A stretch of DNA of 61,042 bases from a virus: positions 1-61,042 of IMG/VR virus record IMGVR_UViG_3300042377_000298. The stretch is one strand, 5' to 3'. Both the position numbers and the translations under genes were made by a program. Below the pieces are notes generated by a model. It had not been told where the DNA came from, ran no database searches, and worked only from the letters and a program-made list of their open reading frames with translations. This document shows positions 9,667 to 54,271 of the stretch, in pieces. Position 1 is the stretch's first letter. Every line of letters begins with the position of its first letter.

Positions 9667-9680
9667 TTTAGTCAACTAAA
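9667..9680. repeat. TTTAG-N4-CTAAA palindrome (core TCAA)
   Basis: CTTTAGTCAACTAAAG lies in the 66-bp gap before the gene at 9727. It is one of 12 exact copies of TTTAG-N(4-5)-CTAAA in this window, most of the others with core CCAA or CCGA. Probably a protein-binding operator or RNA signal. Confidence 0.6.
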
Positions 9681-13260: not shown

Positions 13261-16200
13261 ATGTCTGAAATTTCTCCTATTAATACTGAAAATGATAAAT
13301 TACCTATTGATGATCAGCCTAATAATGCAACAAATATAACTCCAGTTATTGCTCCTTTAGATCAATCAATAAAACAAGAAGCTTCCACAGCCAAGGCTCC
13401 TAAAGTTCCAGATGTAGAAAAAACAAATGCTCGCCGCAAGACTTATGAGTTTTTGGATATCGACCCAATTGATTCATTAAATGTTTTCAATAAAGTAAAT
13501 AAAAATGAATGGAGTTCTGCTGATCCTTCTCGTCGAGATGAAATTGCTTCTGAGAGATTAAATGAGCTAAATCAAAACTTAATAGCAGCAGACCCTAGCA
13601 CCCCATCTGGGCGTGTAGAGATTCCATCATTGCGCAAAATAATTGTAGACGGTAAAGAGACAGAAGAGTTAGTAAATGTTCCTGCTAGCGACAGTTCTGG
13701 AAGGCTTAGCAAGGCTGGTCAGGATTACTACAATCAATCATCTTCTTTACTTTCATCAGCAGCAAAAGATGAGAAAGGTGGACTACGCATAAATCCACTT
13801 ACTGGGAAAACGGTATCGAAAATTGGATCTCGTTTATTAACGCCATATGCAAAAGATGAAATTGATCCTGAGAGATTTTCTGTAAATGAAGAAGGAATTA
13901 AATATGAAAAATTAAATCCAGAAGATGTTGTTGATTACGCGCATGTTCGCAGAATTTATCAGGCAAGAGCGAAACAAGCTGGCATATCCTACAAAAAATT
14001 AATTACTGAATTAATAAGTCCAGGCGAGTCATTGGATCAACTTGATGTAAATAGGCGCATTGTATCTGATATTGGATACAATGCGGGAACCTATGAGGAT
14101 GGATCAAGTGGTGAATTTGTTAATGATCTAGAGCTGCTTGCACAAATTAAAAATTCAAAAATTGGTTCTGAAAACAAAGAAGAAAATGAAAAGTTACAGG
14201 CAATACTTACCAAAAGTATTGCAAGACTTAAAGCCGAAGAAGGCATGGGTTCCAAATTGGTTGATCTTCATGATGGTCAACCAATTTTCAATATGGAGAA
14301 AATAAAAAATATTAATGATATTGAACAAGCATTAGAACAACTTCCAATTTCTAAAACAGAAAAACAATCACTTAAATTAAACTTCAAGACAAATTTTGAA
14401 TCCCAAGCTGTTGAGTTAATTAGAAAACTAGATGTTGGGGATCAGATGACTGATCTTTTCAGGAATAATGATGGACTTGAAAAACTTGCTGATTACATAG
14501 ATCCGGAAACACGTAAAAAATTAGATATTCCTGATTTCCGTGATTTTAGCTCGTTTGAATCATTTACAAATTCTGGGCTATCTGCATATGATTGGCTAAA
14601 ACAAAATTCTGATTTATACGATACTAATATTATATCTTCCAGCATAGAAAAAATTCTTCTTGGAACGCTTGACTCTTTTGACTCTACTAGAGTTGCTGTT
14701 TTAAGTCTTGGAGCTGGAATTGCTCAAGCAGGCATGTCTGTATTGCCAAATACCATAAGCGAAGGACTTAAAGGTAGAGAGTTGCTAGAAGATGCACGGC
14801 TAGGTTTAGCTGAAGGGAAAGCTTTTTTTTCAGAAATGAAAAAAGGTAGAGCTGCCCAGCTTGGGAAATGGGATTTAATAGGCAACGAAGATAGTTATAT
14901 TAATATTACAAGTGATGATATTTTTGACGCTGCTGGAAATATTATTGAAATGTATCTTACGCTAGGTACTTCAAGCGCTGTAAAGGGTCTTGGACTAATT
15001 GGATCAAGAACATTGACCGTTGCAGCATCCAAAGAGTTAGGGAAAAAAGCTGCTGTGGAGTCAACAAAAATGGCAGCAAAATTGCAAGGCGCAGATTCTT
15101 TATTGTTAAGGAACATTGGCAAGATTTCTAAATCTGGAATTGAGTTTAAAGAAGGTGCTAAAGCTTTATGGCAAAACGCAGAAGCATTGAATACTGCGGC
15201 AAATGTATTAAAGACAAGTTTGTATGGCTCATTTACGTCCGCTGGTGGCGGTATCGGAGAAGGTTATTCACGCGCTATACAAGCAGGCAAGAGTGAAGAC
15301 GAAGCTCTTATTGAAGCTACCTCTACTGGGCTTAGCAATGGCCTTGCTACTTTTGTTGCAATGACTGTAATGAACGGGTTGTTTCCTAGTCTAGGTGTCG
15401 AGAAAGGGCTTATTAAAGCCTCTGAGGGAGTTGGATTACGCACATCAATCAGAAACACTATTGCTAGAAACAAATCTTCCGATTCTATTTCAAAGGGCCT
15501 TAGGGAATTAGTTAAAGATAAAGCAACATTAAAGGGAGTTCCAAAAGGTGTTGCAGATGCAATGCGTGGCATTTCTAAATCGCAAGGAATTGTTGGCTTT
15601 GGCAAATCTGTTACTTTTGGAAGCATTGCAGAAGGCATTGAAGAATGGGGTGATGAAATGCTTGCTCCCGTTATTAATGCTTATCTATTAAAAAATGAAT
15701 CTGCTCGTAAACAATTAGAAACAGATGGGTATTGGCTTGGAGCACTTAAGGCTGGAGTTATTGGCATGTTGATGGGTGGAGCAACATCTTTAGGAACAAA
15801 AACTTCTGAAGGTAAAGCAAAGGCTTTTGAACTTGCTAATCAACGTATGGATTCTTATATTGAAAGAGTTCTACCTGCATATAAAGGAATGCAAGACGAG
15901 CTTGTATCTGTAAAGTCTACAACTGCCGAGGGAGCCGAAGCAATTGGCACATTACGCAATATTTTAGAAACTGGCACTACTGACCAAAAGGTTCAGGCGT
16001 TGACAGAGCTTGGCAAACAAAAAATTCAACAATTATCTTTTGATGCGAATACCAAACAAGAAGGTGTTTTAAAAACTCCATCTACTCCTCAAGATTCTGA
16101 CACGAGCAAAAATCCAGATGCAAAAGGTGACCCAATAACTCCAAAAGAAAAAACTACTACTGTAATTGAAAAAAAGAAATTTGATATTCCAAGTAAAATA

Positions 16201-19200
16201 ACAAATAAACAAAATAATGTAAATGTCCCAGTGCAAGAAGAAAGCAATCTTGCTTCATTTGCTTACAATCAAGCGCATGGTCTAGAGATTAAAGATACGA
16301 ATATGCCTAGTCCAAAACTCGAAGTAAGTGGCTCTAGCGTATTCCAAAAAGTTGGTGGCAATATCACTGTTACAAGTTATAACATTAATGGCAATGAAGC
16401 CGATCTTCATAGTTTTGAAGATACAAATGGAGATACTATTTTTACAAATAAAACCAATTTAGGGAAATTATTACTCAAGTCGCATGGCCAAGGAGTTGTT
16501 CTTAAGAATTTATCAAAAGTTTCAAATACTGATAACGTTGCTTCTTTAATAAAATCCTCAGAAAGCAATGTTGATAAAAATCAAACACCAGAAAAAGATA
16601 AAGCTTCTGATCCTGAAGTCACAGAAAAAGATGATTCAAATAAATCAACTTCTGAGCAAGATCCTTTGTCAACAGATACAGCTCCTATTGAAGCAGAGGA
16701 GAAAACTGAAGATATTTACGATGAGAATAAACAAGTTGTTGGAGAAAATAAATTAAAACCAGCACTTAAAAAAGTTTACGACAAGTATCGAAATTATTTT
16801 AATAGAAAGAAAATTGGTATTATTATTGTAACCAATGCTAGTGAGCTTGAAAACATACCCGAATTTAAAAACTTTAAAAAAACCTCAATGGGATTTGCAG
16901 GGACAATTAATATTGGGAAATCAAATCAACGCGATGTTATTGTTATTATAACAGATAATATTGAATCCCAGAAAGCAAGCACACCAGAGGCATCTATTGA
17001 AACAATTTTTGAAGATATTCTTGAGCACGAAAATGCTCATGTCATTACAAAACGATTTAATAGAACAAAAAAAGGCAATAAGCTCAGGAAGGATTTTGAA
17101 GAAGATTTATTCAACAATCAGAAACTTAATGAAGCAATGGATGAAGACTATCCAAGTTTTTCAAAACAAAGTAATGATACCAAGTTTTTTGAATTTGTTA
17201 GAACATTTGTTTCTGGAAAACTAACTAATAGAACTTTGTCTGCGATGATGAGCATCAGCCCATCAATGAAGAAATGGATAGCTGGATTTATTAAGTTTGC
17301 AAAAAAAGAACTAAAAAACTACAGAGGAGCTAAGACTTATTTATCTGCATTTGAAAAGTTTTACATTCAAGAAATTAAGGATGACGCTGCGTTATTCAAG
17401 TATTCTCCATCATCCACTGAAGCATTTAAGAATTTTATTACCAATCTTATATCAAAGGTTTCCCCAACCAAAGCTCGCAAACAAGGAAAGCTTTTAACAA
17501 CAAAAGAAATTGACTTTAGTAATGTTGATAGATATGCAGATGCTTTTACTGATTTTCTTAGAACTGGAATTACAGATTTAACATCTCCTAATGATTTAGT
17601 ATCTAAACTAGTCGATATTCTTAATGGATTTTCTGAAGAATCAATTGGATTAGGGCCAGAATCTAAAAAAGAAATTTTCAATAAAGTAATTGAAGATTGG
17701 AGAAATAACGAAACAAACACAGATATTCTTAATGCATTGTTGGATGCCTCTAATAAAATTGGATCAGTCGATAACGCTCCTCACATTTCTGACGAGTCTA
17801 CTCCTGCTTCAGAGATGGTTCTTAAAGCTACTGAAGAAAGACTAGCATACAACCAGTATACGCGCATTAGAAAGACAGTTGCAGACACTCTTGTAGTTTT
17901 GGTCAAGAACGATACAACCGCCACCCAAAAGGCTGTAACAGAGATTGACAAGCCTTCTGACACTCAAGGAAATTCTGCCAGTAATGCGTATATCTTAGGG
18001 AGGATTGATCAAGCAACTGGTGAAATTATTGATCTTGGATTTGAGGTAGGAGACGTTGTAAGCGTAGTCAATTCAAGCGGCGATGTTATACAACATTTAG
18101 TTTACGTTAAATCGGAAATCTTCATTGCGCCTAATGGACAGAAAGAAGCTAGGCATGAGTTTCTTTCTGGAGTTGTTTCAGAAAATGGCAAACTAAGTTC
18201 TTTTGGGATTGGTTTGCAAACAATGTTTTCTGACAAGTTTCGGAAAGACTTTGAAGAAAGTGGGCTTGTTGATGATATGTTTGCTGTTGAAAGTGGCAAT
18301 CTGAAACTTGATAATGTTGATAAATTATTGCAATTTGTTTTTGAATCACTCACTAATAAGGCAATTAATTCCGAAGGCAAAAATATTAACTCAATTGAAA
18401 TTGCTGGAAAGAGCTACACATTTAATGATTTATTTTTATTTGATATTACAGGAAAGACTAGTGATGCCAATGCATCTCCATTTTATTACAAAGATGGCAA
18501 AATTGTAGTAAACATTGATGCGTTAAGAACTGAGTTTTCTTTTATTAATGACAGTCTTTTAAAGGACTCTGATAACAAAAAAACTATTGGATTGCTTATT
18601 GCTCAAGCGGTTCGCACCGCAATTGACGAAGAGTTGCTTCACCACATTACAACACTGACATTTGGTGAAGATGAACTTGTTAGCCTATATAACGATTTAG
18701 CAGAAAATGATAGATTTAGTGGCTTGTTAAATCAAATTGCCAATGCGCAAGGTATTTACGTATCTAGCGAACAATTTACAGATCAGCAGCGTTATGTTAT
18801 TGCTACAGAGTTCCTTGCATTTATTAATCAAAAGTCTTTTGATGGCGCAACATATGCAGATCAATACAATCAATTACTCAAGTCTTACGCCAGTGCCAAG
18901 CCAGATGGGAAAGCTCTTGCTACTGCATCTTTATATGGAAAACGATTTAAAGATATTCTCATAGCTAGATCCGCTACATCACTAATGGCTCCGCGTCTTA
19001 TTGACATGGTTAACAAACTATCAGTATTGAAAAGCGAAGTCATGCCAAAGCAATCTAGCTCCAACATGGCCAATGTATACGCAAACTTCAATGCAGATGC
19101 ATACACTAAATCCAGAGGTCGTATGCAGCAATCTATTGATAATGCATTCTTAAAACAATATTCCGCTGTAAATGACTTGCGCACTTACCTTGCTGAGAGT

Positions 19201-22200
19201 CGATTAATGGCAAATCAAATATTAGATTTTGACTTTAACAATAACACTGTTTCTTTATCTCCAGAATTTAGGGCTGTATATCAAAACAAAATTACAGCCG
19301 AAGAATTGGCTGAACTAGATGATTACTTTAGCCGACTAAACAATGATTCTGTAGTAAGAGAGTTTCTTGTTACGCTTTCAGCCGCAAGAGCAAGTCTTGA
19401 TGCAATTACTGAGCAAGTTGACGTGAACAATAATGATCCTGATTTGGGTAATAGATTTCAACAAGCAACTAAAAATTACAATAATCTTGTATTGGACTAT
19501 GCTGATATTTTCCTAAACAAAAACCTTACAAAAGTTGATGAGTTTGGTAGATCCTTTGCAGTAATTGGTTCCGAGCTTGGAGGAGAATCATTTCCTGTTT
19601 ATTCAGAAACATCTGATAACTCTGTCACAGTCAAATTTAATGCAGATACCAGCAATGTCACTATATTCACATACGATGTTAATTTGTTTGGTTATGAAAA
19701 TCAAAATCCAAGTAACGCAATTAATGACCGATATGAACAAAGAAAAAAATTTGCAGATGTTAACAATGATTTGGAAAAAGCAAAAACAGAAACTCTTTGG
19801 TTTTATGGCTACAGGGGTAGATACACAAGTTCCGATCGCCAAAACTTTCCCAACAAGGTTTCGACAATTGAAGGCAATGCGGCGTTTCTTGGAGAAGAGG
19901 AATTCAACTTCTTTTATATTTCAAGAATTAATGGAGAATCATTTAGATTAAATAACAACCCATATAGTTACACTGACTTTAGGAAAATGATGGGTTTTAA
20001 TCCCATTGATTTCAAGATCAATAGTGATGGGGAAAAAGTCTTCTTAAACTTCAATGAAGTTATTAATAAATTTATTATTTCTGACGAAGAACTTGAAACT
20101 GGTGTTTCAAATACAAGCACTGGAGAATCTTACACGGTTACAATTCGACGCATGTCCGAAAGCAAATTGCTTAAGGATTCGGAACCAGAGAGACAAAGAA
20201 TTGTTCTAGGATCTGCTTTGCAAAGGTTTTTTGGCGATACTAAAAATATTTTAACTTGGTTCAATAAACTTGAAGAGATTATTGGTTATGAACGCAGTAG
20301 CGGTGATATCAATGTTATTAATGAAATATCTGGAAGAGAAACATTTGCTAGCAAGTTTGCCAAGCAGCTTAAGTATCGGATGTTTAACAATAGGTTAATT
20401 CATGGCAATGGTATTCATGAAAAAATAGATGGTGAAACTGAAAGTGATCAATCTCTCTATGGAATGATTAAGGAGCTTCAGTCTGCTTATTATGCATTAT
20501 TTGCCAGCATTACTCCACCAAGCGATGTCAAGCTTTTCAAATCAGTTGGCAAAAACGAATTAAGTAATGCAGAAGTTAGCAACCTACTTGCTAAATTGCC
20601 TGTGTTTCTAGAGGCAATTGATTCACTGAATCAAGATATTGGATTGGCTCGAAAAGCATATACACGTTTCACTAGCAGTTATCTTCTCAATACAATTAAG
20701 GGCGACATTCGATTGATTCAAGAACAAAACACTGAGGGTCTTAGAGCTAATGAAGAACTATTAAGGGCGATCCAGTATAGTTTTTATGATATTCAGGCAA
20801 TGGAGGATGTTGAGTTTTTAATGGACTACAGGAATAATGGTGGAAGAAACGGAATAAATGGCATTATTGCGCTTAACCTTCTTGATCAACTTGCCAACAT
20901 TCCTAGTTCTGCGCAAAATGAATATTATGTCAGCAATACTCCATCTAAAAACGTTGCTTATTTGCTACAAACATACGCTATGTATCTTGAAAATGGAGTT
21001 AATCCAAGAACAAAAGATGCTGATGGTAAGTCAACCTATCCAACTGACAACTTAGTATTTAATGTTATTCAGAAATATGGAGACAAGGCTAACGAGAATG
21101 AAGATGATTTCAATGCGGATATTGACACTAAACCAAGCGACACTGCCGAAACCATTGGCATGTCTGGTGTCTCTCCAGTAACTGGTAGAGATGAGGCAAG
21201 TCAGGAGGCTATTGATTCAGCACGCAGAGAGTCAATGCACGAAGAGGTCAAGAGAATGAAGTCTTGGACTTTCCACGCTGCTATCTCTATTTTCCAAAGA
21301 ATTGTTGGCAATGACAATGATATAACTATTGATGGAATTGATACTTCAAAAACTAAATTGTTCTTTTACTTATTTGCTAAAATTCAAAATCGTCCAAGCA
21401 TGGAAAATGATTTCAATGAAGAGGACTTTAGCCAACTAAAGAAAGATCATCAAGACTTAAGCAACTTAATGCTTGATCAATTAAAAGCTCTTTCAAATCA
21501 CTACAACATGACAAACTCACCTAACACTGGGTTTGAACAGATCGCAAACAAAGTGCGTAAATCTAGTTATACGCATCCAATGGAATTCCTTGCTGATGTT
21601 GTTGAGGTGATTGGTGCAATGGAAAGAGATTATCTTGATGAGGTTACTGATGCTGGGAAAACTCTTGCTGAATATTCACAAAGAGAGCTTAAAAAGGAAA
21701 TAGCTAAATCTGAATCCGCAGTTAGCGTAGATAAAGGCGCTACAAGTTTTGCTGATACTAGTAAATTGCAAGAAAAACTTGAGTCATTGATTGAAGGATT
21801 AAATCTTGAATTAGATAGTCCATCTGTGTCTCCATCAATTATAGCACTGTATAAAACTAAAATTTCTGAGATTGAATCTGAGATTGAGTCTGCTACACAA
21901 GGTGCTGCTCAACAGGTTCAGGGCCAATCTGCTGTTAAGCGTTACATTAAAAAAGACACAACAGAGTTGCGCCAAAAACTGGACTTTCTTAATAGCCAGC
22001 TTGATGCATTTAAAACTTCCTTATTAGAAATAAGAGCGGACAACCCAAAGAATCCAAGCATTCCGGGTGTAATGAAAGAAATATCAAATAAGCAAGCTGA
22101 GGTAAAGAGAGCTACTTACGAACTTAAAAACTTAACATCAGAAAATGAAAAAGCTGATGCGCAAATAAAAACCCCAATTGAAAAACTTGAAAATTATTAT

Positions 22201-25200
22201 CAAGCACTTAGATCAAAGTTGTATGCGGCGCAGCAAAAAGCAACTACTGATGATCTTGGAAATGCAGTTTCTGAAACAACCAAAAGAGACATTGGTAATG
22301 AAGGTCAATTTTTGCGTAGGCCTCGAGTTGGAGAAACAGAAAATATTGCAGTTAACGAACTTGCTGCTGATGCGCAAATTGAAAGCATAATGAATCGAGT
22401 TGGCTTGATGATTTCAAAACTACAGAATTTACAAGAAAAACCAAAGTCAATGCTTAGCTATAACCAAGAGCAAGCACAGTTGGTATTGGACTCCATGCAG
22501 GAAGATTCAGACAAGAATAAATTAAGTGCAGGAACTATTTTTTACGCTAGAACATTTAAATTCAAATCTAATGAATCATTAATTAATGATAGCTTGTTCA
22601 TGAAGTTTCCTTTATTTAGCGCATTAATTCAATCAATGCCTAACCTGATTGTGTATCAACCAGATACAAACTATAATGGGAAAACAAATAATCTTCCTGA
22701 TGGTGCTGGCCTTGTGCAATTGTCAAATGGAGACAATATATTGTATATCACAAATCCTGATCAATTAAATAATAGCAAACAAGCTCAGATTCTAGAGTCT
22801 TTAATTGTCGCACAAATTAAATCAGAATCGGACAATGGCGCTCGCCCTTCTGTTTTACAGCAGACAATTGATCAAATGGCTGAAGTAGTGCAAACTCAAG
22901 CTAAGCACGCAATCAACATGACCCCAGACAGGATTAATGTAATGATGGCAAGAGCTGAACTTGCGATTAACAAACTTACAACAATTGATAATAAAGTTAA
23001 AAAAGCGATAATTAGTCGTTACAAAAAGTCACTAGAGGCAAATGCTTACGACTCAATCAAGTTGCTAACTAATCGGACAGCTAGGCGTTCATACATTGAG
23101 GATCGCGTATCTAATCGCACGGAAAACGTAAGTCGTTTCTTTGACCAATTAGTAACTGCTGATCGTGCAAATGGGAAGACATCAACAATTGACAATATTC
23201 AAATGATTGTTGATATGTTTACTAATCCAGATTCATATAGGTTATTAAGCACATTCAAATCTCCTGATTTAGATTTTAATGCATATTCACCATTGCCTCA
23301 ATTTGATGCTTTGCTTAATAAGGCTTTGTCAATTTTTGCAATTCCCGAAGTTCGAAGTAGTGCAATTCATGAAATTCAAATACAAAAAAGACTTCAGTTA
23401 ATAGATGAAGCAAACGAAGGAATTGAAGAAGACAATGTTGAGACTGATCCAAATTTAATTTACGAAGCTATTGCTGAAAATTACAACGAAGAAAATCGCA
23501 CTCGAAAAAAACTAAGCAAACCTGAGATTTTAAATATCATCAAGCAAATGTCGGATAGTCAAATTAAGGGCATTATTGACCCTCTCATCATGGAGAGGTA
23601 TTTCTTGACCAATCGCTCACCTGAAGCTGCAAAAGACCTTGTTGAGGCATTTAAGCAGAACACTGCGCAACCTGACTTCCTATACAGATATGTTGGATCA
23701 CAATTAATGAAAGCAATGGAGCCTACATTAATTAACGCAGATCCTTCAATTAAGGAAACATCTATTTTTGATAATGAGTTTCCAACTAAATCACTTAGTC
23801 GTGAAGCAAGAGCATATGACGTTTTGTTTGCAACCAATAAGCCAATCTTACTTAGCACTATGATGGACCCAGCCATTGGAACTAATAATACTTTTTCCAA
23901 TGTTGAGGCGAGAACGCCAACTGGAGATATTACTAATTTCTATTATGGCCACAGCCCAATGACTGAAACTTATAGGGTCAATCGCAAAAAAGTTCTTCTT
24001 GGGATGTTACTTGGCAAAACTGAAACTGGCAAAAGTTTAGTTGATAAGCTATTTGATGATCAAGAAGAATTAGCTATGGAAGTTTTTTCCGTCACTTCCT
24101 CTGTAAGCCTTGATAAGTTTTCTGGCATTTTAGGATTAATGATTAAGGAACTACCCGCATTAATAGGCGATGATGTAGTAGCTAGGGCAGAGCAAATCGT
24201 TGATAGAATTGCTGTCTTAGCGCGCAACAACAAAGAAGAAACCAAGAAACGTATTGCTGAATTAAGCAATCAATTAGAGGTGATTAAACAACAAGGACGA
24301 GAATTCTTATTAGAGAAACTTATTGAGCGAAATAAAGAAGCTGCTAAAGTCGCAACTTCACAACTTCTTTTTACTCCTGATGAAAACGAAGAAAACATTG
24401 GTATTTATGACTCTCGATCCACACTGGAATCTATTGCAAATCGTATTTCTAATTATCTCATTTCTGAAAAACTTGGTTTGAATCGCAACAGTTATAACTT
24501 AGCTAAAAAACTAGAAACAAATGCAAATAGCTATTTGTTAAAATATAAAAATGCTATTTCAAGAATATCTAATTATGATCAACAAATTGCAACTTTATTT
24601 GATGGAGACTTTTCTTCCGACTATACTAGAAATAACACCAAGTATCGTTTTCTTGTTGATGGACGCAATAATTTAATTGATAAGGCTGAAATCTATAAAT
24701 CTGAGTATGTAAAGCTTGCGGCAATGGATTTAATGGGAGAGTTAATTAATCCGTCTCATTTCTTTGCAAGTCCCAATTCAGATGTGCAAGGTTATATCCG
24801 TAGTCGCCTGAATGAAATAGGCAATTATGGTAAGATTAAATACAGAAGTGTTTCACCATTTGATGAAGATGCTACCTCATCTGCTGTTTTCAGGGGAATT
24901 TCTGGTAGTCTTGTTACTAGAGGACGCAAAACAAATTTAATGCTTGGCATTAATAAAGCTACAAGGCCTGAATTTGCATCTGAATTGCTTGATGGAATTA
25001 CCAAGAACGAAGCAAAAGAAATGTTTGCTTCACTAGGTCCAGATTTGCTGAAAAATTTTGCAAACAATAAAGGATACCTACAAGACAACTTCAAGTCTGA
25101 AATGGTGCGCGAATTCTTTAGCCGACTAAAACAAGAAGGAACAATATCCAAGTTTGCTAAGGAGATGTCGCAAAAAATAGACGTTCTCAAATACAATGAG

Positions 25201-28200
25201 AGCCAAATCAAGGAAATGGTTATCAAGTCTCTTTCTGAAAACAAATCATTATTAAAACTTATTAATGATGAGTTCATTGTTACTGATTTAGAATTAGCTG
25301 AATCTGATGTTGAGACTGGAAAGAAAATTCTTGATGGAAACATTGAAGGAAAAATTGAAGAAATCACATCTGAAATTGAAAGATTAACAAAAATTAGAAA
25401 TACAACTCAAGGTCACTCTACGCAATTATCCAAAACAGGATCTCCAAAAATTGGTAACGTGACGCTATTTGAAATACCAGCTTACAAATATCCAGATGAA
25501 AATGATGCAAGAAAGCGCATGAACATGGGCATGCCAGCAAGCAGAAAAGTCAATCTCAGATTGACAAGAAGCCTTAACGAGTCTGACTTAAGCACTGATC
25601 AAATAGCGCGCTTTGATGCTACGACTAGGGATGCTCGTATTATTAACGAAGCTATGAACATCTTTCTTGAAGAAGAGGGCGAGGTTGCTTACAAGGCGCT
25701 ATCCGAAGAAGTTGATTTGTATGGCGAAGGTTTCGACGTTAAGCAAAACATTCAAAACGTAATTGAATTAATACAACTCAAAAACAATCTTTCTGAAAAA
25801 ACAAATACTAAATTTGAATTAATGATTCAGGAAATGTCAAAGATTGACACAATTCTCAATGAAGCAGATCAGCCAGCAATTGAGCTATATGGTATGACGT
25901 TGCGTGACATGATCAAGTTGGGCTTGTCTCCAGCAACTTTAATTAATGAGAAGGGCAAAAAAGAAGTTATTAATATTGCAGACAAGTCTTCCACTCAGTC
26001 TGAAATCAATAGAATTAAACAAACTGCGTTATTTATTAAAAATGAAGCTGGGTTAGCGGTATTTATGCCGACAGATGGAAAACTTGTCGACCAGCCGGGA
26101 AGAAGTCATTTTCTTTATAGTCGATCAGCGCTGAATCATTTGCAAAGTTTCAAGAAAATCACTAAACAAAAAGGAAAAGCAGAGAGTTTGTTGAAAGACG
26201 CTATCTTTAGAGCCTCACGTGGCGCTACTGGATTTGACACATTCCTTAGAACACAAAGCCATGAAAATGTAGACTTTGATGCAAGCAAGCCAGTCAGTTC
26301 AGAACTTGCTGTTGCTACTGGTGTAAATCCAGCAATGACAAAAGGAGAGTTTGTTAAGACTGCTAAAAGACTCTTTAATGAATACTTCTTAAAAGAAATA
26401 GGCAACTACGTGTTTTCTTCATTTGCTAAAGGTATTGGGATTTATAGCACGATCAAAAAAACTGATCGCATGAATGATCAAGAAATTCAAGAAGCATTTG
26501 ATTCTGTTTACAGCTTTGCATCTGATGTAGCAAATGATGCTATATTGAAATCTTCTGGTTTTTCTGTTTTAACAAAAGCAAAACAGGACTACACAAATAA
26601 TGAAAAAGCGAAAATTGTTAAATCTGCTTACGATATTGCAATTAATGAGAACAAATTTTTAGCTCCAAATTCACATGCATCAAACAATATTTTGCTTAAT
26701 GAATCTATGTTTGAAGACATTATTACAATGTTGGAAAGTGATAAGTTCGCCTTGCTTAATAAAAACAAATCAGTAAGCGCATATGAAGTTGCTGCAATTA
26801 ATGCAATAGCAAGTGTATTTAGTAACGAAATTAATACGGCAAATAGCACTTCTGGCAAATTCTTTAGCTTTGATACAGCTATTACGCGTCTTGATTTACG
26901 TCAAAACTATTCAAGACTTTATTCGTTGCTTTACTCACAAGATATTTTCACTGATCTTCTTAGTGGTGTTGTTGATTCAGAGAAAAGAGACAGCAATGAT
27001 TTATTTACTCATTCAAATGCTTTAGTGAAACAAAAGTTCGCAAGAAGCTTTGGTTCTTATCAAAGGGCATTAAGTTTGCAAGGATTGATTGAGCAAGGTA
27101 TTAATGGAAATTCTGGAAGAAATAAATACTCAGCAAAATATGAGGAGTATCAAGACAGGATTGGAAAAGCAGCAAGTCAAATTGGAAATGATTTTGACCT
27201 AGGCTCACGTGCTTATATGGTGGCTGTGACAAAAGGAATTGTTGAAGCCAATAATAGAGATGGGGGAACTGATTTGGACTTGGCTTTGAAATTGCATTAT
27301 TTTGCTTCTGCTTACAACAATGGGATAAGAGATCATCGCCAATTGCTTAGAGACATTAAGGATTTCAAGAAAAATGGCAACATGTTTTCTCGCGCAGTTA
27401 AACTCTTTGATACTATTGGAAGAAAGCAATCAAGAGAAGACATGAACGTCAGCCTTATTAATAATTTAATTGGGGCGGAAATTGAATTAATTGCGCGAAG
27501 AGATCCAAAATCATTAACAAGACAAGAAGTTCAGTCCTATATCAATCAAATTGAAAATATTCTTTATGATGGATTTGACTCCAAAACAATTAGTGGAATG
27601 AACAATTATGCGAATGCATTATTGGAAGAATTTACTGGGATTTACGAAGGCCATAGAATTGCAAATGCTTTTGCTTCTGAAGAAACATTGCGTGGAATTG
27701 AAGAGGTTGTTGATCCTAAAATAAGCAAAACTGCAAAAACATTAAAAAATCCATATAGCGTTATTCCATTGCGTTTTGGGCATGTGAAAAATCCATTAAG
27801 TAAAAAAGATCCAAGTATTGGCAATGGATCTCCAACTATTGATAGCTTTGTGAACTTTGAGCAAAGTTTAATGAACTATAAGGGACGAACAATCTATGAC
27901 TTGCAAAAAGAAAGCTTTGTTCGCGTTTTACGTCCTTTAGACATGAACCCATTTACTGCTCCAGATCAAATTGCCAATGATGCAATTTATAGAATGTATT
28001 TGAATCCATCATATACTGTTATTCGCAAAATGCTTGGAGAGTATGGAGTTGATGTCAATGGAATTCCAAAAACAGAAAATGGACATTTGGTTGGAGCTAT
28101 AAAAGCACTTTACAATATAAGCAATGATCAAAGAATTGAAAAAATTGGTCAATATAATCAAATATCTGCTTACATTATAGATAAAATTAACACTGAAATT

Positions 28201-29766
28201 AAAAACGATATGCCAATGGATTTGGCTGATAGTTTGCTTGCTGATGCACTTCGCATTTCTAATGTTCATTTAATGGTGAAAACCTTGGCGAGTGTAACGC
28301 AAATCTTGACACAAGGAATTTTACCAGCATTAGCCAAATACCTTAATGTTAAAATTGGTAATTTTGCAGGACTGCATCAAAAAGATTCTGCAAGATTAAC
28401 AGAGGCTTACGCTTTGGCATTAAAAGATTATTTTAAGTCTAGCAGCGAGGGAGATGGCCGAAACTTTGTTAAAGAGAATAGCACTAATAGTTACAAGTGG
28501 AGAGCTGAAGGGGCTAATAAAAGAGATTCGCAAGTCAGCATGACCAAGTATGCAAGCCAAAATCATCTCACTTATTTAACAAGAGTTTTTGGAGCTTCAT
28601 TCAATAAACTTGGAGAAGGATTGCTGGATGCTACAATTGGAAAACCAGAAAGAGCACTGGTGCAAGCTATTTACATGTTTGAATTATTTAATGAACTGCA
28701 AAAAGACATGGGGCAAAACGCGCCAAAAACAATTGCAGAAATGATCAAAATGAATCCAGATCAATTTAGCACCTATGCTAAAACAAAAGCTGATACAATG
28801 GTCACTGACTTTATGGGCATTGGTGATAGAGCTAAAAAAGCTAGAATTTACAACCTACCTAGAAATAGGGCGGTAGAGACATTGTTATTGAACTATGTGA
28901 CTAGATATGGGAATCACGCGCTTACTGTTGGCCCGAATTTAATGGTCAACATGGATCAATTGTATAAGCAATTAAGCGGAACATACAGCGACAAGCAAAT
29001 GCGCAATGATGCACTTGAAAACGTTATTGGAACTGTTTTGCAAACATTGTTATTTAGGTTTGGTCAGGTCCAAGTGATGTTGCCAAACTTGATTTATTTG
29101 TTTTACGGCATTACTGGATTGCTTGGTGGTGATAAAGACGAGGATGAGGAAGATGCTACGCAAAAAACGCTGGATTTATTGCGTAGATTGGATGTTTATG
29201 GAGAGCCTGAACTTGAAGAGGATACATTTATGACAATACTTAGCAGAAGATTGAGAACTTATTTGCTACCGCAGCAATTTGCTGCTACTAAAAAAGAAAA
29301 TAGAACTGCTAAATTATTTGGATGGCAATTCAAACATAGTCCAATTCTTGAATCTAATTTAGGAGCGCTTAGAAAATCTGCATTAGATACACTTCCTGTT
29401 ATTTCTTATCTAAAGGCTGGGTCTGCTTTAAGCGTCCCACTGGGCAACAATTTTATTGATCTTACTTCTGAAATTTCAATGATGGGATTAAGAGGCGATA
29501 ATGTTGATTTCTCTGATATTGGTCGCATTGCATTTAAAACGGAAAATATAGCATCTGCTCCAGTTTTGTCTTTGCTTGAAAGCTATAAAGGAGTAATGAA
29601 CACTGCTTCTGTTCCGTTAAATTACTTTTTACCAAAAGAAGGAATGGAAGGTATTTCTGCTACAGAAATGCTTGAAGGAATGTTAGTATCACCTCTTGGT
29701 ACAAGAGAATATCGCCCAACATATTATGAGCGAATTAAAAATAAAGGTGGATGGGGGGACTATTAA
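13261..29766 (+). CDS. giant 5501-residue virion-type protein with zinc-peptidase motif
   Basis: One uninterrupted frame of 16.5 kb. Residues 1-60 are acidic and disordered. About 480-860 holds several hydrophobic, glycine-rich helices (VAVLSLGAGIAQAG, LSNGLATFVAMTVMNG, GVIGMLMGGATSLG) as in ejected proteins that form membrane channels. About 920-1150 is a charged linker. At 1256-1260 lies H-E-N-A-H, a zincin HExxH, with E1311 (in KFFEFVRTF) as likely third ligand. A related but degenerate D-E-E-L-L-H-H lies at 1789-1795. The rest is mainly helical, with coiled coils (about 2830-3000) and a hydrophobic segment near 5260-5290 followed by DKDEDEEDA. Such giants occur in phages as multidomain polyvalent or ejection proteins; no RNA polymerase motif set was seen. 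Probably delivered into the host with the DNA. Confidence 0.75.
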   Translation: MSEISPINTENDKLPIDDQPNNATNITPVIAPLDQSIKQEASTAKAPKVPDVEKTNARRKTYEFLDIDPIDSLNVFNKVNKNEWSSADPSRRDEIASERLNELNQNLIAADPSTPSGRVEIPSLRKIIVDGKETEELVNVPASDSSGRLSKAGQDYYNQSSSLLSSAAKDEKGGLRINPLTGKTVSKIGSRLLTPYAKDEIDPERFSVNEEGIKYEKLNPEDVVDYAHVRRIYQARAKQAGISYKKLITELISPGESLDQLDVNRRIVSDIGYNAGTYEDGSSGEFVNDLELLAQIKNSKIGSENKEENEKLQAILTKSIARLKAEEGMGSKLVDLHDGQPIFNMEKIKNINDIEQALEQLPISKTEKQSLKLNFKTNFESQAVELIRKLDVGDQMTDLFRNNDGLEKLADYIDPETRKKLDIPDFRDFSSFESFTNSGLSAYDWLKQNSDLYDTNIISSSIEKILLGTLDSFDSTRVAVLSLGAGIAQAGMSVLPNTISEGLKGRELLEDARLGLAEGKAFFSEMKKGRAAQLGKWDLIGNEDSYINITSDDIFDAAGNIIEMYLTLGTSSAVKGLGLIGSRTLTVAASKELGKKAAVESTKMAAKLQGADSLLLRNIGKISKSGIEFKEGAKALWQNAEALNTAANVLKTSLYGSFTSAGGGIGEGYSRAIQAGKSEDEALIEATSTGLSNGLATFVAMTVMNGLFPSLGVEKGLIKASEGVGLRTSIRNTIARNKSSDSISKGLRELVKDKATLKGVPKGVADAMRGISKSQGIVGFGKSVTFGSIAEGIEEWGDEMLAPVINAYLLKNESARKQLETDGYWLGALKAGVIGMLMGGATSLGTKTSEGKAKAFELANQRMDSYIERVLPAYKGMQDELVSVKSTTAEGAEAIGTLRNILETGTTDQKVQALTELGKQKIQQLSFDANTKQEGVLKTPSTPQDSDTSKNPDAKGDPITPKEKTTTVIEKKKFDIPSKITNKQNNVNVPVQEESNLASFAYNQAHGLEIKDTNMPSPKLEVSGSSVFQKVGGNITVTSYNINGNEADLHSFEDTNGDTIFTNKTNLGKLLLKSHGQGVVLKNLSKVSNTDNVASLIKSSESNVDKNQTPEKDKASDPEVTEKDDSNKSTSEQDPLSTDTAPIEAEEKTEDIYDENKQVVGENKLKPALKKVYDKYRNYFNRKKIGIIIVTNASELENIPEFKNFKKTSMGFAGTINIGKSNQRDVIVIITDNIESQKASTPEASIETIFEDILEHENAHVITKRFNRTKKGNKLRKDFEEDLFNNQKLNEAMDEDYPSFSKQSNDTKFFEFVRTFVSGKLTNRTLSAMMSISPSMKKWIAGFIKFAKKELKNYRGAKTYLSAFEKFYIQEIKDDAALFKYSPSSTEAFKNFITNLISKVSPTKARKQGKLLTTKEIDFSNVDRYADAFTDFLRTGITDLTSPNDLVSKLVDILNGFSEESIGLGPESKKEIFNKVIEDWRNNETNTDILNALLDASNKIGSVDNAPHISDESTPASEMVLKATEERLAYNQYTRIRKTVADTLVVLVKNDTTATQKAVTEIDKPSDTQGNSASNAYILGRIDQATGEIIDLGFEVGDVVSVVNSSGDVIQHLVYVKSEIFIAPNGQKEARHEFLSGVVSENGKLSSFGIGLQTMFSDKFRKDFEESGLVDDMFAVESGNLKLDNVDKLLQFVFESLTNKAINSEGKNINSIEIAGKSYTFNDLFLFDITGKTSDANASPFYYKDGKIVVNIDALRTEFSFINDSLLKDSDNKKTIGLLIAQAVRTAIDEELLHHITTLTFGEDELVSLYNDLAENDRFSGLLNQIANAQGIYVSSEQFTDQQRYVIATEFLAFINQKSFDGATYADQYNQLLKSYASAKPDGKALATASLYGKRFKDILIARSATSLMAPRLIDMVNKLSVLKSEVMPKQSSSNMANVYANFNADAYTKSRGRMQQSIDNAFLKQYSAVNDLRTYLAESRLMANQILDFDFNNNTVSLSPEFRAVYQNKITAEELAELDDYFSRLNNDSVVREFLVTLSAARASLDAITEQVDVNNNDPDLGNRFQQATKNYNNLVLDYADIFLNKNLTKVDEFGRSFAVIGSELGGESFPVYSETSDNSVTVKFNADTSNVTIFTYDVNLFGYENQNPSNAINDRYEQRKKFADVNNDLEKAKTETLWFYGYRGRYTSSDRQNFPNKVSTIEGNAAFLGEEEFNFFYISRINGESFRLNNNPYSYTDFRKMMGFNPIDFKINSDGEKVFLNFNEVINKFIISDEELETGVSNTSTGESYTVTIRRMSESKLLKDSEPERQRIVLGSALQRFFGDTKNILTWFNKLEEIIGYERSSGDINVINEISGRETFASKFAKQLKYRMFNNRLIHGNGIHEKIDGETESDQSLYGMIKELQSAYYALFASITPPSDVKLFKSVGKNELSNAEVSNLLAKLPVFLEAIDSLNQDIGLARKAYTRFTSSYLLNTIKGDIRLIQEQNTEGLRANEELLRAIQYSFYDIQAMEDVEFLMDYRNNGGRNGINGIIALNLLDQLANIPSSAQNEYYVSNTPSKNVAYLLQTYAMYLENGVNPRTKDADGKSTYPTDNLVFNVIQKYGDKANENEDDFNADIDTKPSDTAETIGMSGVSPVTGRDEASQEAIDSARRESMHEEVKRMKSWTFHAAISIFQRIVGNDNDITIDGIDTSKTKLFFYLFAKIQNRPSMENDFNEEDFSQLKKDHQDLSNLMLDQLKALSNHYNMTNSPNTGFEQIANKVRKSSYTHPMEFLADVVEVIGAMERDYLDEVTDAGKTLAEYSQRELKKEIAKSESAVSVDKGATSFADTSKLQEKLESLIEGLNLELDSPSVSPSIIALYKTKISEIESEIESATQGAAQQVQGQSAVKRYIKKDTTELRQKLDFLNSQLDAFKTSLLEIRADNPKNPSIPGVMKEISNKQAEVKRATYELKNLTSENEKADAQIKTPIEKLENYYQALRSKLYAAQQKATTDDLGNAVSETTKRDIGNEGQFLRRPRVGETENIAVNELAADAQIESIMNRVGLMISKLQNLQEKPKSMLSYNQEQAQLVLDSMQEDSDKNKLSAGTIFYARTFKFKSNESLINDSLFMKFPLFSALIQSMPNLIVYQPDTNYNGKTNNLPDGAGLVQLSNGDNILYITNPDQLNNSKQAQILESLIVAQIKSESDNGARPSVLQQTIDQMAEVVQTQAKHAINMTPDRINVMMARAELAINKLTTIDNKVKKAIISRYKKSLEANAYDSIKLLTNRTARRSYIEDRVSNRTENVSRFFDQLVTADRANGKTSTIDNIQMIVDMFTNPDSYRLLSTFKSPDLDFNAYSPLPQFDALLNKALSIFAIPEVRSSAIHEIQIQKRLQLIDEANEGIEEDNVETDPNLIYEAIAENYNEENRTRKKLSKPEILNIIKQMSDSQIKGIIDPLIMERYFLTNRSPEAAKDLVEAFKQNTAQPDFLYRYVGSQLMKAMEPTLINADPSIKETSIFDNEFPTKSLSREARAYDVLFATNKPILLSTMMDPAIGTNNTFSNVEARTPTGDITNFYYGHSPMTETYRVNRKKVLLGMLLGKTETGKSLVDKLFDDQEELAMEVFSVTSSVSLDKFSGILGLMIKELPALIGDDVVARAEQIVDRIAVLARNNKEETKKRIAELSNQLEVIKQQGREFLLEKLIERNKEAAKVATSQLLFTPDENEENIGIYDSRSTLESIANRISNYLISEKLGLNRNSYNLAKKLETNANSYLLKYKNAISRISNYDQQIATLFDGDFSSDYTRNNTKYRFLVDGRNNLIDKAEIYKSEYVKLAAMDLMGELINPSHFFASPNSDVQGYIRSRLNEIGNYGKIKYRSVSPFDEDATSSAVFRGISGSLVTRGRKTNLMLGINKATRPEFASELLDGITKNEAKEMFASLGPDLLKNFANNKGYLQDNFKSEMVREFFSRLKQEGTISKFAKEMSQKIDVLKYNESQIKEMVIKSLSENKSLLKLINDEFIVTDLELAESDVETGKKILDGNIEGKIEEITSEIERLTKIRNTTQGHSTQLSKTGSPKIGNVTLFEIPAYKYPDENDARKRMNMGMPASRKVNLRLTRSLNESDLSTDQIARFDATTRDARIINEAMNIFLEEEGEVAYKALSEEVDLYGEGFDVKQNIQNVIELIQLKNNLSEKTNTKFELMIQEMSKIDTILNEADQPAIELYGMTLRDMIKLGLSPATLINEKGKKEVINIADKSSTQSEINRIKQTALFIKNEAGLAVFMPTDGKLVDQPGRSHFLYSRSALNHLQSFKKITKQKGKAESLLKDAIFRASRGATGFDTFLRTQSHENVDFDASKPVSSELAVATGVNPAMTKGEFVKTAKRLFNEYFLKEIGNYVFSSFAKGIGIYSTIKKTDRMNDQEIQEAFDSVYSFASDVANDAILKSSGFSVLTKAKQDYTNNEKAKIVKSAYDIAINENKFLAPNSHASNNILLNESMFEDIITMLESDKFALLNKNKSVSAYEVAAINAIASVFSNEINTANSTSGKFFSFDTAITRLDLRQNYSRLYSLLYSQDIFTDLLSGVVDSEKRDSNDLFTHSNALVKQKFARSFGSYQRALSLQGLIEQGINGNSGRNKYSAKYEEYQDRIGKAASQIGNDFDLGSRAYMVAVTKGIVEANNRDGGTDLDLALKLHYFASAYNNGIRDHRQLLRDIKDFKKNGNMFSRAVKLFDTIGRKQSREDMNVSLINNLIGAEIELIARRDPKSLTRQEVQSYINQIENILYDGFDSKTISGMNNYANALLEEFTGIYEGHRIANAFASEETLRGIEEVVDPKISKTAKTLKNPYSVIPLRFGHVKNPLSKKDPSIGNGSPTIDSFVNFEQSLMNYKGRTIYDLQKESFVRVLRPLDMNPFTAPDQIANDAIYRMYLNPSYTVIRKMLGEYGVDVNGIPKTENGHLVGAIKALYNISNDQRIEKIGQYNQISAYIIDKINTEIKNDMPMDLADSLLADALRISNVHLMVKTLASVTQILTQGILPALAKYLNVKIGNFAGLHQKDSARLTEAYALALKDYFKSSSEGDGRNFVKENSTNSYKWRAEGANKRDSQVSMTKYASQNHLTYLTRVFGASFNKLGEGLLDATIGKPERALVQAIYMFELFNELQKDMGQNAPKTIAEMIKMNPDQFSTYAKTKADTMVTDFMGIGDRAKKARIYNLPRNRAVETLLLNYVTRYGNHALTVGPNLMVNMDQLYKQLSGTYSDKQMRNDALENVIGTVLQTLLFRFGQVQVMLPNLIYLFYGITGLLGGDKDEDEEDATQKTLDLLRRLDVYGEPELEEDTFMTILSRRLRTYLLPQQFAATKKENRTAKLFGWQFKHSPILESNLGALRKSALDTLPVISYLKAGSALSVPLGNNFIDLTSEISMMGLRGDNVDFSDIGRIAFKTENIASAPVLSLLESYKGVMNTASVPLNYFLPKEGMEGISATEMLEGMLVSPLGTREYRPTYYERIKNKGGWGDY

Positions 29767-42971: not shown

Positions 42972-43328
42972 TTATTTTACTTCTAATGTTTGTTGTTGGA
43001 TTTTACCCACTTTAAGCATCCAAGGATCAGGATTTTGAAGCAACGGCCTGAGCCAGTCTTGAACAGTTGGAATATAACCGCAGTCTTCTGTTACATGCTG
43101 CTCTGATAAAAGCTTCACTGGTATTTTTTTGCCATGACTATTTGTAATGTAATGACCAAATACTAAGATTGACTGTTCAACTCCTTGTGCGTGATGACGT
43201 AAGGCTCTATGAGTCCAGTTACCAGTCAGTTGCTTTGTCTCATCAAACCATTGATGTAGGTCAATGTAGTCTTCTGGAGTGCCGCCCCACTTAATGCAGC
43301 TGCTTTCAGCGTGTTTGTAAGGAGTCAT
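42972..43328 (-). CDS. DUF6915-like phage protein
   Basis: 118 residues. The conserved chain is visible: HAESSCIKWGGTPEDYIDLH, WFDETKQLTGNWTHRALRHH, GKKIPVKLLSEQHVTEDCGY and IPTVQDWL ... PWML. I recall this H-x-W-FD ... HRAxRHH ... EQHVxEDxG pattern as DUF6915. Many His residues suggest metal binding. Coupled by ATGA to the upstream gene. Function unknown. Confidence 0.65.
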   Translation of the reverse strand: MTPYKHAESSCIKWGGTPEDYIDLHQWFDETKQLTGNWTHRALRHHAQGVEQSILVFGHYITNSHGKKIPVKLLSEQHVTEDCGYIPTVQDWLRPLLQNPDPWMLKVGKIQQQTLEVK

Positions 43329-43639
43329 AATACATCTAGTTTTACAGAGCCTTGATAAGTATCAGTTCTTTCCATAGTCCATTCCATATGGCTCACGGTA
43401 TTATTAACAAGATCATATTCAATATTATCTCCATAATCAGTTCCGTCTCCAGCGCCATTATATGGATAATGATCATCTGCCCATTCATATAACTCATCTC
43501 GCAGTTCTGGGCTGTAAGGATATGTCTGAATTTCTAAATTCCCGCAATCGCTTCCACCTGATAATTCAACAACAAATTGTTTAATTTCTGCTGCAAGTAG
43601 TTTTTGATGTAGTAGTTTTGGTAATGGTTGTATAGTCAT
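43325..43639 (-). CDS. small acidic protein, unknown
   Basis: 104 residues with FVVELSGGSDCGNLEIQTY and an acidic aromatic section (YEWADDHYPYNGAGDGTDYG). It resembles small phage proteins of the DUF6878 kind in tone, but I cannot confirm that. Coupled to both neighbours by ATGA overlaps. Confidence 0.5.
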   Translation of the reverse strand: MTIQPLPKLLHQKLLAAEIKQFVVELSGGSDCGNLEIQTYPYSPELRDELYEWADDHYPYNGAGDGTDYGDNIEYDLVNNTVSHMEWTMERTDTYQGSVKLDVL

Positions 43640-43823: not shown

Positions 43824-44312
43824 AAAGGTGGCCGATGCGCGCGGCATTATGACTTTTCATCTTACAGTGTGTCGCTAGTATTACGTTTAGCTGTCCAGAG
43901 GTGAGAATTATTAGAGTTTCATCCGATCGACCTTTTATGTTCCTGCTTACCGTATGCAGGGCTAGCTTGACGCTACTAGCGGGTCCATCAGGAATCCTCT
44001 TTATCAGTGAGTTCCTAATGCCTAAGGCAGCGTCTTTCCGCTGTGTCTTTGTGGTGATGTGCTACTACGCTAAAGAGAAGATCGACCTTACCATTTACGG
44101 GGTGTCTCACTACTTAACCAAGGGAGCCAAACGAAACTCGTTTTCAGGAAAGCTATCCCATTGCTTTAGTGATTAGCGAAATCACCTTGCATTGATAAAT
44201 GGTTCTCACGGTAATCAAAGCCGAATTACATTTACCCTCTGAACTTTCACATGATTGATGCTCCTCTCACATGCTACAACGTCACGATTTGCTCTTGTCC
44301 CACTCATTATAG

Positions 44313-44333
44313 GATGGCTGCTTCTAAGCCAAC
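44313..44333 (-). ncRNA. hairpin matching the 23S rRNA GTPase-associated centre (L11-binding) stem-loop
   Basis: The minus strand here matches 21 of 21 nt with the stem-loop of E. coli 23S rRNA around positions 1060-1080 as I remember it (core GGCTTAGAAGCAGCC). The second hairpin of the 58-nt ribosomal domain is not evident downstream, so only half of the motif is present. It folds locally as TGGCT/AGCCA with loop TAGAAGC. Possible mimic of an L11-type site, or convergence on a loop fold. Confidence 0.55.
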
Positions 44334-44497
44334 CTTTCACCACACTCGCACCCACTGTTCAGGTCGCTCAACATCCACCCAAGCTTGCTGTTGGACGTAT
44401 ATCCTAAGTAGAGACTTACAGGTATTGTTTACTCAGTTGCCCTCAATGCAATAAGCGCGAGTGTAGTGACATGCTAAACGGCATGTCAGCGTTTATC

Positions 44498-44538
44498 GAA
44501 CATGTTGATGCAATCAACCTTGCGGTGATTGATCTTTT
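44498..44538 (-). repeat. GNRA hairpin element, copy A (5' part of the large RNA)
   Basis: On the minus strand: GATC, then AATCACC-GCAA-GGTTGATT, then GCATCAACATGTTC. Copy B at 47812-47852 shares the flanks and differs in the stem by two paired changes. It is the first strong structure of the candidate RNA and lies next to the TGACATGC hairpin. Confidence 0.65.
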
Positions 44539-44634
44539 CTATTCGGAATATTAATTAATTACACAATCATCTAAAGCAAAGCTAATTTCAATTTATTTAG
44601 TTTTAATTTTTATATTTTTATTTGCTTTTTTGAT

Positions 44635-44648
44635 TTTAGCCAACTAAA
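44635..44648. repeat. TTTAG-N4-CTAAA palindrome (core CCAA)
   Basis: TTTAGCCAACTAAA between the AT-rich upstream side of the large RNA (minus strand) and the plus-strand gene at 44675; it could control either transcript. Confidence 0.65.
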
Positions 44649-44674
44649 GTTTGCTTGTGGACAGAACTGCCATA

Positions 44675-45595: not shown

Positions 45596-45955
45596 TTAAT
45601 ATTGTTTTTTATATGTTGCTATGTCCATTAGCTCTTGAATGCCAATTATTTTGAAATCTAACAAGTTATTTACTGTTTCAATGCCTTTTGCGTTAAGCCA
45701 ATAATACGACTTGTGGACTTTGCCTGTTTTTCTACGCTTGAATTCGAGCCAGAACTTTAGCCGACTAATCGTTGATCTCATTTCCATGCTGGTCATTAAG
45801 TTAACCTCAGCTTGAGTAGCTTCAGGAACTAGCCCAATTGCTGCTTTATTAGCGCATATACCAGCAACTGCCACAATAATGCAGGCTTCTTTGACCGTTA
45901 AGCCATAAGCCATGCTGTTTCGAGTGAATGATGTTATAGCGTCTATTTTGTTCAT
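45596..45955 (-). CDS. winged-helix-like protein, paralogue 2
   Basis: 119 residues with the same N-terminal phrase and layout as the gene at 45210: helix region VKEACIIVAVAGICANK, HTH ATQAEVNLMTSMEMRSTISR and a basic wing (FKRRKTGKVHKSYYW). Similarity is clear only at the N-terminus and layout. A near-palindrome TTTAGCCGACTAAT lies inside this gene (45776). Confidence 0.6.
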   Translation of the reverse strand: MNKIDAITSFTRNSMAYGLTVKEACIIVAVAGICANKAAIGLVPEATQAEVNLMTSMEMRSTISRLKFWLEFKRRKTGKVHKSYYWLNAKGIETVNNLLDFKIIGIQELMDIATYKKQY

Positions 45956-54103: not shown

Positions 54104-54271
54104 ATTCGTGTATGGTTTGGTTCAAGCTGGCCTACCAACGTGGTAGGTTGCAGCGAGAGGAATATGACGCAACCCCCATCACCTTTCGGTGACAGGACGC
54201 TTTGGGCTTAATGTCTGTTTAACGTCGCCCAAACGACGGAGTAGTTTTAACGCCTTGCTCAGGGCGAAGTC
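54104..54271 (-). promoter_or_regulatory. hairpin-rich leader
   Basis: Minus strand shows CCTACCA-CGT-TGGTAGG (perfect 7 bp), GTTGC/GCAAC, TCACC-GAAA-GGTGA (GNRA loop, about 54167-54181) and GGGC/GCCC pairings within 168 bp, all before the ATG at 54103. The GNRA hairpin resembles the elements at 44.5 and 47.8 kb but lacks their flank. Leader RNA or small RNA. Confidence 0.45.

Follow-up and report, generated by a model that had tools for sequence, protein, structure and literature searches.

The window analysed here, the whole of a 61,042-base virus record, carries on its minus strand an RNA that is almost certainly a mimic of the GTPase-associated centre (GAC) of 23S rRNA. We infer a GAC-like fold, binding to the host's ribosomal protein uL11 and a role as a decoy in trans; for identity and mechanism together, that is, for a free-standing phage GAC mimic acting in this way, we would put the probability at roughly 0.55.

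The likeness to 23S rRNA is direct. A minus-strand block shared with relatives (GGTTGGCTTAGAAGCAGCCATC) is helix 43, with GCCAGGATGTTGGCTTAGAAGCAGCCATCATTTAAAGAAAGCGTAATAGCTCACTGGT as its counterpart in Salmonella 23S; about 240 nt downstream lies UUUAGCGUAGUAGCACAUCACC, the counterpart of 23S GCGUAAUAGCUCACUGG, which comprises helix 44 and the strand that closes helix 42; and UGUGGUGA together with UCACCACA closes the whole RNA as helix 42. All three GAC helices are present (helix 43 with its A1067 loop, helix 44 with its A1095 loop, and helix 42), and the variable ones covary. The E. coli numbering and the identities of the tertiary contacts follow what we take to be established for the GAC. 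Set beside the 23S element, E. coli 1051-1108, where L11, thiostrepton and EF-G bind, the phage RNA has the same order of elements, a near-identical helix 43 and the A1067 and A1095 loops, and likewise has U1060, A1088, G1087-C1102 and the tertiary pair 1082-1086, which in the window takes the compensated form A1082-U1086. It differs in being a separate short gene, in an insert that separates 1090 from 1091 and measures about 50-365 nt, in a U1090-A1101 pair and a UUUG linker, and in a basal helix that varies freely and in most members appears to be without the uL10 kink-turn region. No rRNA match was found in the window that would indicate a full 23S gene around the RNA, and the insert interrupts helix 44. 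This identity had escaped the preliminary description of the same DNA.

Table 1. Features of the RNA and its surroundings in the window
Feature	Position	Strand	Basis or remark
Whole conserved RNA	44044..44346	-	Covariance model R1, built without the window: 96 bits, E = 2.2e-27, full model 1-163
Basal stem 5' strand, 23S helix 42 equivalent, UGUGGUGA	44337..44344	-	8 pairs with 44050-44057
Hairpin equivalent to 23S helix 43 (nt 1057-1081), A1067 loop UUAGAA	44311..44335	-	Near-identity to Salmonella 23S
Equivalent of 23S nt 1082-1090, AUAAUGAGU	44302..44310	-	1082-1086 pairing
227-nt insert between 1090 and 1091	44075..44301	-	Hypervariable among relatives
Insert-closing helix P2, 5' strand GGGA	44298..44301	-	Pairs with 44075-44078 (UCUC)
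Motif A hairpin GACACCCCG[UAAA]UGGUAAGGUC, GNRA/UNAC-type loop	44084..44106	-	Inside insert
Helix P2, 3' strand	44075..44078	-	Covariation
UUUA linker and helix-44 hairpin equivalent (1091-1103: GCGUAGUAGCACA), A1095 loop	44058..44074	-	Conservation
Basal stem 3' strand, helix 42 equivalent	44050..44057	-	Direct reading and covariation
Upstream part of gene-free stretch	44345..44560	-	Fold z = -2.0; no blastn relatives
Downstream part of gene-free stretch	43825..44049	-	Fold z = -1.6; no blastn relatives
Dispersed palindrome TTTAGTTGGCTAAA	43810..43823		10 window copies, not RNA-specific
Dispersed palindrome TTTAGCCAACTAAA	44635..44648		10 window copies, not RNA-specific

The RNA lies in a gene-free stretch bounded by a minus-strand gene (43325-43639) and, from about 44651, a gene on the plus strand. 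The preliminary description had seen no protein-like frame in 43824-44545, and indeed just two short plus-strand ORFs (91 and 67 aa) occur there, neither with a significant PHROGs match. Its AT-rich upstream side (44545-44650) and the T6 run at the other end, on the minus strand, were also found, and its choice of the minus strand was correct. The folding energy on this strand is better than that of shuffled sequences (z = -3.6 over 861 nt, 20 shuffles; plus strand, z = -2.4), but the excess is modest, with z values of -2.0 and -1.6 for the upstream and downstream parts and -0.5 for the middle part. Energy alone is therefore weak evidence, and the RNA is proven by the comparison of relatives; the minimum free energy fold of 44047-44356 does not display the GAC core. 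Comparative support covers about 295 nt (44050-44344), not the single ornate RNA of about 0.7 kb that had been proposed. For the outer parts (44345-44560 and 43825-44049), blastn returned no relatives except identical contigs, and a search by protein synteny likewise returned identical contigs only. This outer 0.5 kb or so may or may not belong to the transcript.

The two palindromes said to flank the stretch form a perfect 15-nt inverted repeat (43810-43824/44634-44648), but they are not markers of the RNA: TTTAGYYRRCTAAA has 10 copies in the window at up to one mismatch, against 0.31 expected, at 9667, 19327, 21427, 25117, 30265, 36028, 43810, 44635 and 53403, and with one mismatch at 45756. 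Because of this dispersal, the inverted repeat was dropped as a closing stem of the RNA. Several copies are intergenic, and the sequence is perhaps an operator-like or other regulatory site. Elsewhere in the window are a Pistol ribozyme (54168-54238, minus strand; 61.6 bits, complete model match) and a single frame of 5501 aa (13261-29766, plus strand), unusually long given the size of the phage.

Relatives of the RNA are numerous. When the stretch was compared with 50,697 phage records by sensitive blastn, short matches appeared, mostly in unannotated DNA, in phages of Pseudomonas, Aeromonas, Serratia, Erwinia, Cronobacter and Xanthomonas, and also in plain 23S rRNA records. An exact 19-nt helix-43 pattern was found in 113 stretches of IMG/VR. 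Among 118 helix-43 sites, which include a few from named records and the window itself, 106 are accompanied by a helix-44-like sequence no more than 700 nt away; four of these are ordinary 23S rRNAs, spaced at 13-14 nt, and all the others are spaced at 60-640 nt. With a phage-specific helix-44 pattern, which gave at least 120 matches, at least 140 distinct members with both halves were recognized in IMG/VR and named phages, the latter including Pseudomonas pf16, Aeromonas 4_4572, Serratia BF, Cronobacter GAP32 and Xanthomonas XacN1. Members also occur in metagenome-assembled (MAG) contigs assigned to Clostridia, Nitrospirota, Parcubacteria and Bdellovibrio. A search of the bacterial genome collection with the helix-44 pattern gave only 21 contigs, about 15 of them true members, and the RNA is therefore chiefly a viral feature; exact-pattern matches in Citrobacter, Camelimonas, Thiothrix and two MAG contigs (L208-L211, L214) are probably due to chance, the rest of the RNA being absent. 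A permissive structural scan picked up the window along with 164 loci, and had no match in 1.05 Mb of mononucleotide-shuffled sequence.

In the Pseudomonas phages Astolliot and Milchi, a degenerate second copy of the RNA lies directly upstream of the main one (L116 2654-2983, L234 1161-1490). Small hypothetical proteins deposited for some phages (e.g., Milchi, UNO-G1W1 and Kaldavass; L118, L230, L234) overlap part of the RNA, and these annotated ORFs are probably spurious.

The preliminary description had named a conserved protein frame among relatives, or an alignment free of covariation, as what would speak against an RNA; on both points the outcome favoured RNA, and the covariation among related phage sequences is very strong. 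All nine helix-42 pairs change on both sides among relatives (89% paired), and pairs 1057-1081 and 1058-1080 of helix 43 covary. Across 91 dereplicated cores, the nine helix-42 pairs, 1057-1081, 1058-1080, 1082-1086 and the first four P2 pairs exceed every shuffle, and helix 42 is paired in 89.6% of cases in register, against 36-43% when slid. The first three P2 pairs are 100, 99 and 90% paired in these cores, with compensatory changes in all three. A MAFFT alignment of 42 contiguous members, from which the window was left out, has 93.6% of cells paired (70.7% shuffled, 35-53% slid), changes on both sides in 262 cells (81 shuffled, 56-73 slid), and a covariation score of 0.591 (0.10-0.19 slid). 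The slid control retains the relatedness of the sequences, so common ancestry cannot account for the covariation. The tertiary pair 1082-1086 is formed as UA, CG or AU in 94-97% of members, against 55-60% in shuffles.

Conservation of single positions has to be read with the way in which loci were collected. The two halves, collected independently, corroborate one another. The helix-44 pattern led to 107 loci, of which 83 also passed when checked structurally for helices 42 and 43; position 1067 in loci found this way is A in 76% and G in 16%. U1060, A1088 and G1087-U1090 stand at 100% in these loci, but the scan preset T at 1060 and GAGT at 1087-1090; U1060 and A1088 are also kept in members chosen by overall similarity. 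In 77 members found through helix 43, A1095 is kept in 98%, and G1091-U1094 and A1098-A1101 in 100%, positions partly conditioned by the one mismatch to the helix-44 pattern that was allowed for this set. The covariance model R1, built from the 42 members without the window and with E-values that are rough, matches Salmonella 23S at 1085-1156, the GAC (53.5 bits, E = 2e-14). It also matches eight of eight phage records tested; these or related records supplied three of its 42 training sequences, from loci that include L116 and L119.

The RNA is commonly found beside tRNA genes, although the window itself has none. A tRNA lies within 1 kb in 89 of 140 members, the nearest being on the same strand in all 89; over all 140, 325 tRNAs within this distance are on the same strand and none on the opposite one. 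Gaps between RNA and tRNA peak at 8-22 nt on both sides. Compared with random places in the same loci, tRNAs are found within 1 kb in 64% versus 44% of cases, and within 300 nt in 55% versus 30%.

This setting recalls two known phage RNAs. GOLLD is a large structured phage RNA often near tRNA islands, and ROOL a phage or prophage RNA found near them as well (PMC12286853). A GOLLD- or ROOL-type identity, as first suggested, did not hold: phage origin and tRNA arrays are what they have in common with the present RNA. GOLLD differs in sequence and fold and, being often longer than 800 nt and cage-forming, is unlike the phage GAC RNA; ROOL, though alike in setting, was matched neither by the window nor by 17 relatives. 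The covariance-model search suggested at the outset (GOLLD, ROOL, HEARO and others) gave no Rfam 15 family match in the stretch, either at gathering level or at E up to 10, and 17 relatives gave none at gathering level; the lone weak match, to SCARNA7 (E = 0.69), is on the opposite strand and outside the RNA. The further suggestion of a structured RNA, possibly of a new class, was upheld. No description of the RNA was found in the open PubMed Central papers, the scope of a search that did not extend to subscription papers and preprints, and neither these nor Rfam 15 yielded a viral RNA copying a functional rRNA centre.

Two other systems offer parallels of a different kind. The ribosomal proteins bL12 and bS21 are encoded by phages, bL12 being a stalk protein with uL11-contacting residues (PMC6375957). 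These too are phage-borne mimics of ribosome parts, bL12 coming from the same stalk region, and its carriage by phages shows the GAC/stalk region to be a phage target; they are, however, proteins built into ribosomes, while the present mimic is an RNA and probably acts off the ribosome. OLE RNA has been proposed to sequester the ribosomal protein RpsU/S21 (PMC12286853). The idea of a non-coding RNA holding a ribosomal protein is shared, but OLE is unrelated, bacterial, and concerns another protein.

The RNA reproduces the helix 42/43/44 junction with both its loops (A1067 and A1095) and its L11-binding tertiary core, carries a variable domain inside helix 44 and, in the mechanism proposed here, would bind host uL11. 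In the ribosome, L11 sits on helices 43 and 44, and thiostrepton binds between them (PMC5365698). Since the tertiary core and exposed loops are kept while the basal stem is plain, we infer binding of uL11 without the L10/L12 stalk. To judge by sequence, the RNA should not recruit L10/L12: nearly all members have a plain helix of varying sequence as their basal stem, which in most appears to be without the uL10-binding kink-turn. A possible exception is L016 (1048-1180, minus strand), whose basal stem looks 23S-like (AGACAGCCAGG / CUGGCCGAG), as if the uL10-binding region were kept; it is possibly an intermediate form. By binding, the RNA could keep L11, or factors that use the L11-GAC surface (EF-G, EF-Tu, IF2, RelA), off ribosomes, and this sequestration would change how the infected host translates. 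Among its consequences, a weaker RelA stringent response would be the single most useful; RelA activity requires L11 (PMC5365698). The broader proposal, a class of viral GAC decoys that captures L11 and/or translational GTPases or RelA and so switches off the stringent response or re-tunes translation, is put forward tentatively, at somewhat less than even odds. The G at position 1067 in 16% of relatives speaks against a decoy, as does the insert inside helix 44, which might alter the L11 face.

An alternative, which we consider unlikely, is that the decoy is protective: a host defence enzyme or toxin directed at the GAC, whether to attack or to sense it, would meet the copy instead, and the ribosome would be spared. 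The tRNA-gene setting in largely lytic and jumbo phages would suit such a role, as would the retention of the exposed loops, and there is an analogy in phage tRNAs, which are thought to replace tRNAs lost to anticodon nucleases. However, the preservation of 1082-1086 by compensatory change points to protein binding by the whole fold, and no nuclease or modifier with helix 43 or 44 as its target is known to us from anti-phage defence.

The insert suggests another reading, less probable again, in which the GAC fold is a docking module that holds L11 or a translation factor and thereby brings the insert, or in the window copy the outer 0.5 kb, to bear on the ribosome or phage mRNA. The insert is always between 1090 and 1091 (51-365 nt in 104 regular members), and such a constant place, the closing helix P2 and the recurrent motifs A and B are what a docking module might show, as is the 0.5 kb of gene-free sequence around the window copy. 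Motif A occurs in 25 of 104 relatives, nearly always 7 nt from the P2 3' strand, and its outer pair is GC, UA, AU, CG or GU in 25 of 25; motif B, also recurrent, is CCCUUAGAG. A comparison of motif A (CGUAACUGGUAA) with 16S rRNA, which has a similar stretch close to its 3' end, was dropped, the variants of the motif being a plain GNRA/UNAC hairpin. Yet inserts go down to about 50 nt and are mostly unalike across members, which argues against a shared effector domain, and no relatives of the outer parts were found beyond identical contigs. A further insert occurs in the base of helix 43 in some members. For the decoy favoured here, the insert may tune stability or recruit something else.

Ribosomal protein leaders provide a precedent for a cis-acting role, since the autoregulatory leaders of uL10 and uL1 mimic rRNA sites; it is nevertheless very improbable that the RNA is an L11-sensing element controlling downstream phage genes. 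No constant downstream gene was seen among members, and a tRNA often lies within 8-22 nt on one or both sides. In XacN1, a promoter-like site (TTGACT-17-TAATAT) is found just upstream, and a terminator-like GC hairpin and T tract directly follow the basal stem. Terminator-like sequences lie within 100 nt in 8 of 140 members (control, 1.4%), and a few besides XacN1 end in clean terminators. From the XacN1 signals and these few terminators, the RNA seems to be a unit of its own and not the leader of an mRNA.

Lastly, a non-functional origin, as a recombined rRNA fragment, an attachment site in the 23S gene or contamination, has a negligible chance of being right: some motif matches are real 23S contamination (Pd_22F, Salmonella and Listeria records), but the insert, the phage-specific U1090-A1101, compensatory changes in every variable helix and the presence of the RNA in complete lytic phage genomes all stand against it, and covariation rules out the attachment-site and rRNA-fragment readings. 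Ordinary bacterial 23S rRNA inside the phage records MZ092003, OR845016, KM209255 and others is apparent contamination.

Genes for tRNAs, tmRNA and a few ribosomal proteins are known from phages; a GAC decoy would be the first case known to us of a virus mimicking a functional rRNA centre. The RNA is widespread and very strongly conserved, and the decoy reading predicts L11 binding, thiostrepton binding and an effect on ppGpp. The RNA accounts for an unannotated gap that recurs in tRNA clusters and in the genomes of jumbo phages, sometimes filled by probably spurious ORFs, and it opens a direct test of how phages seize host translational GTPases.
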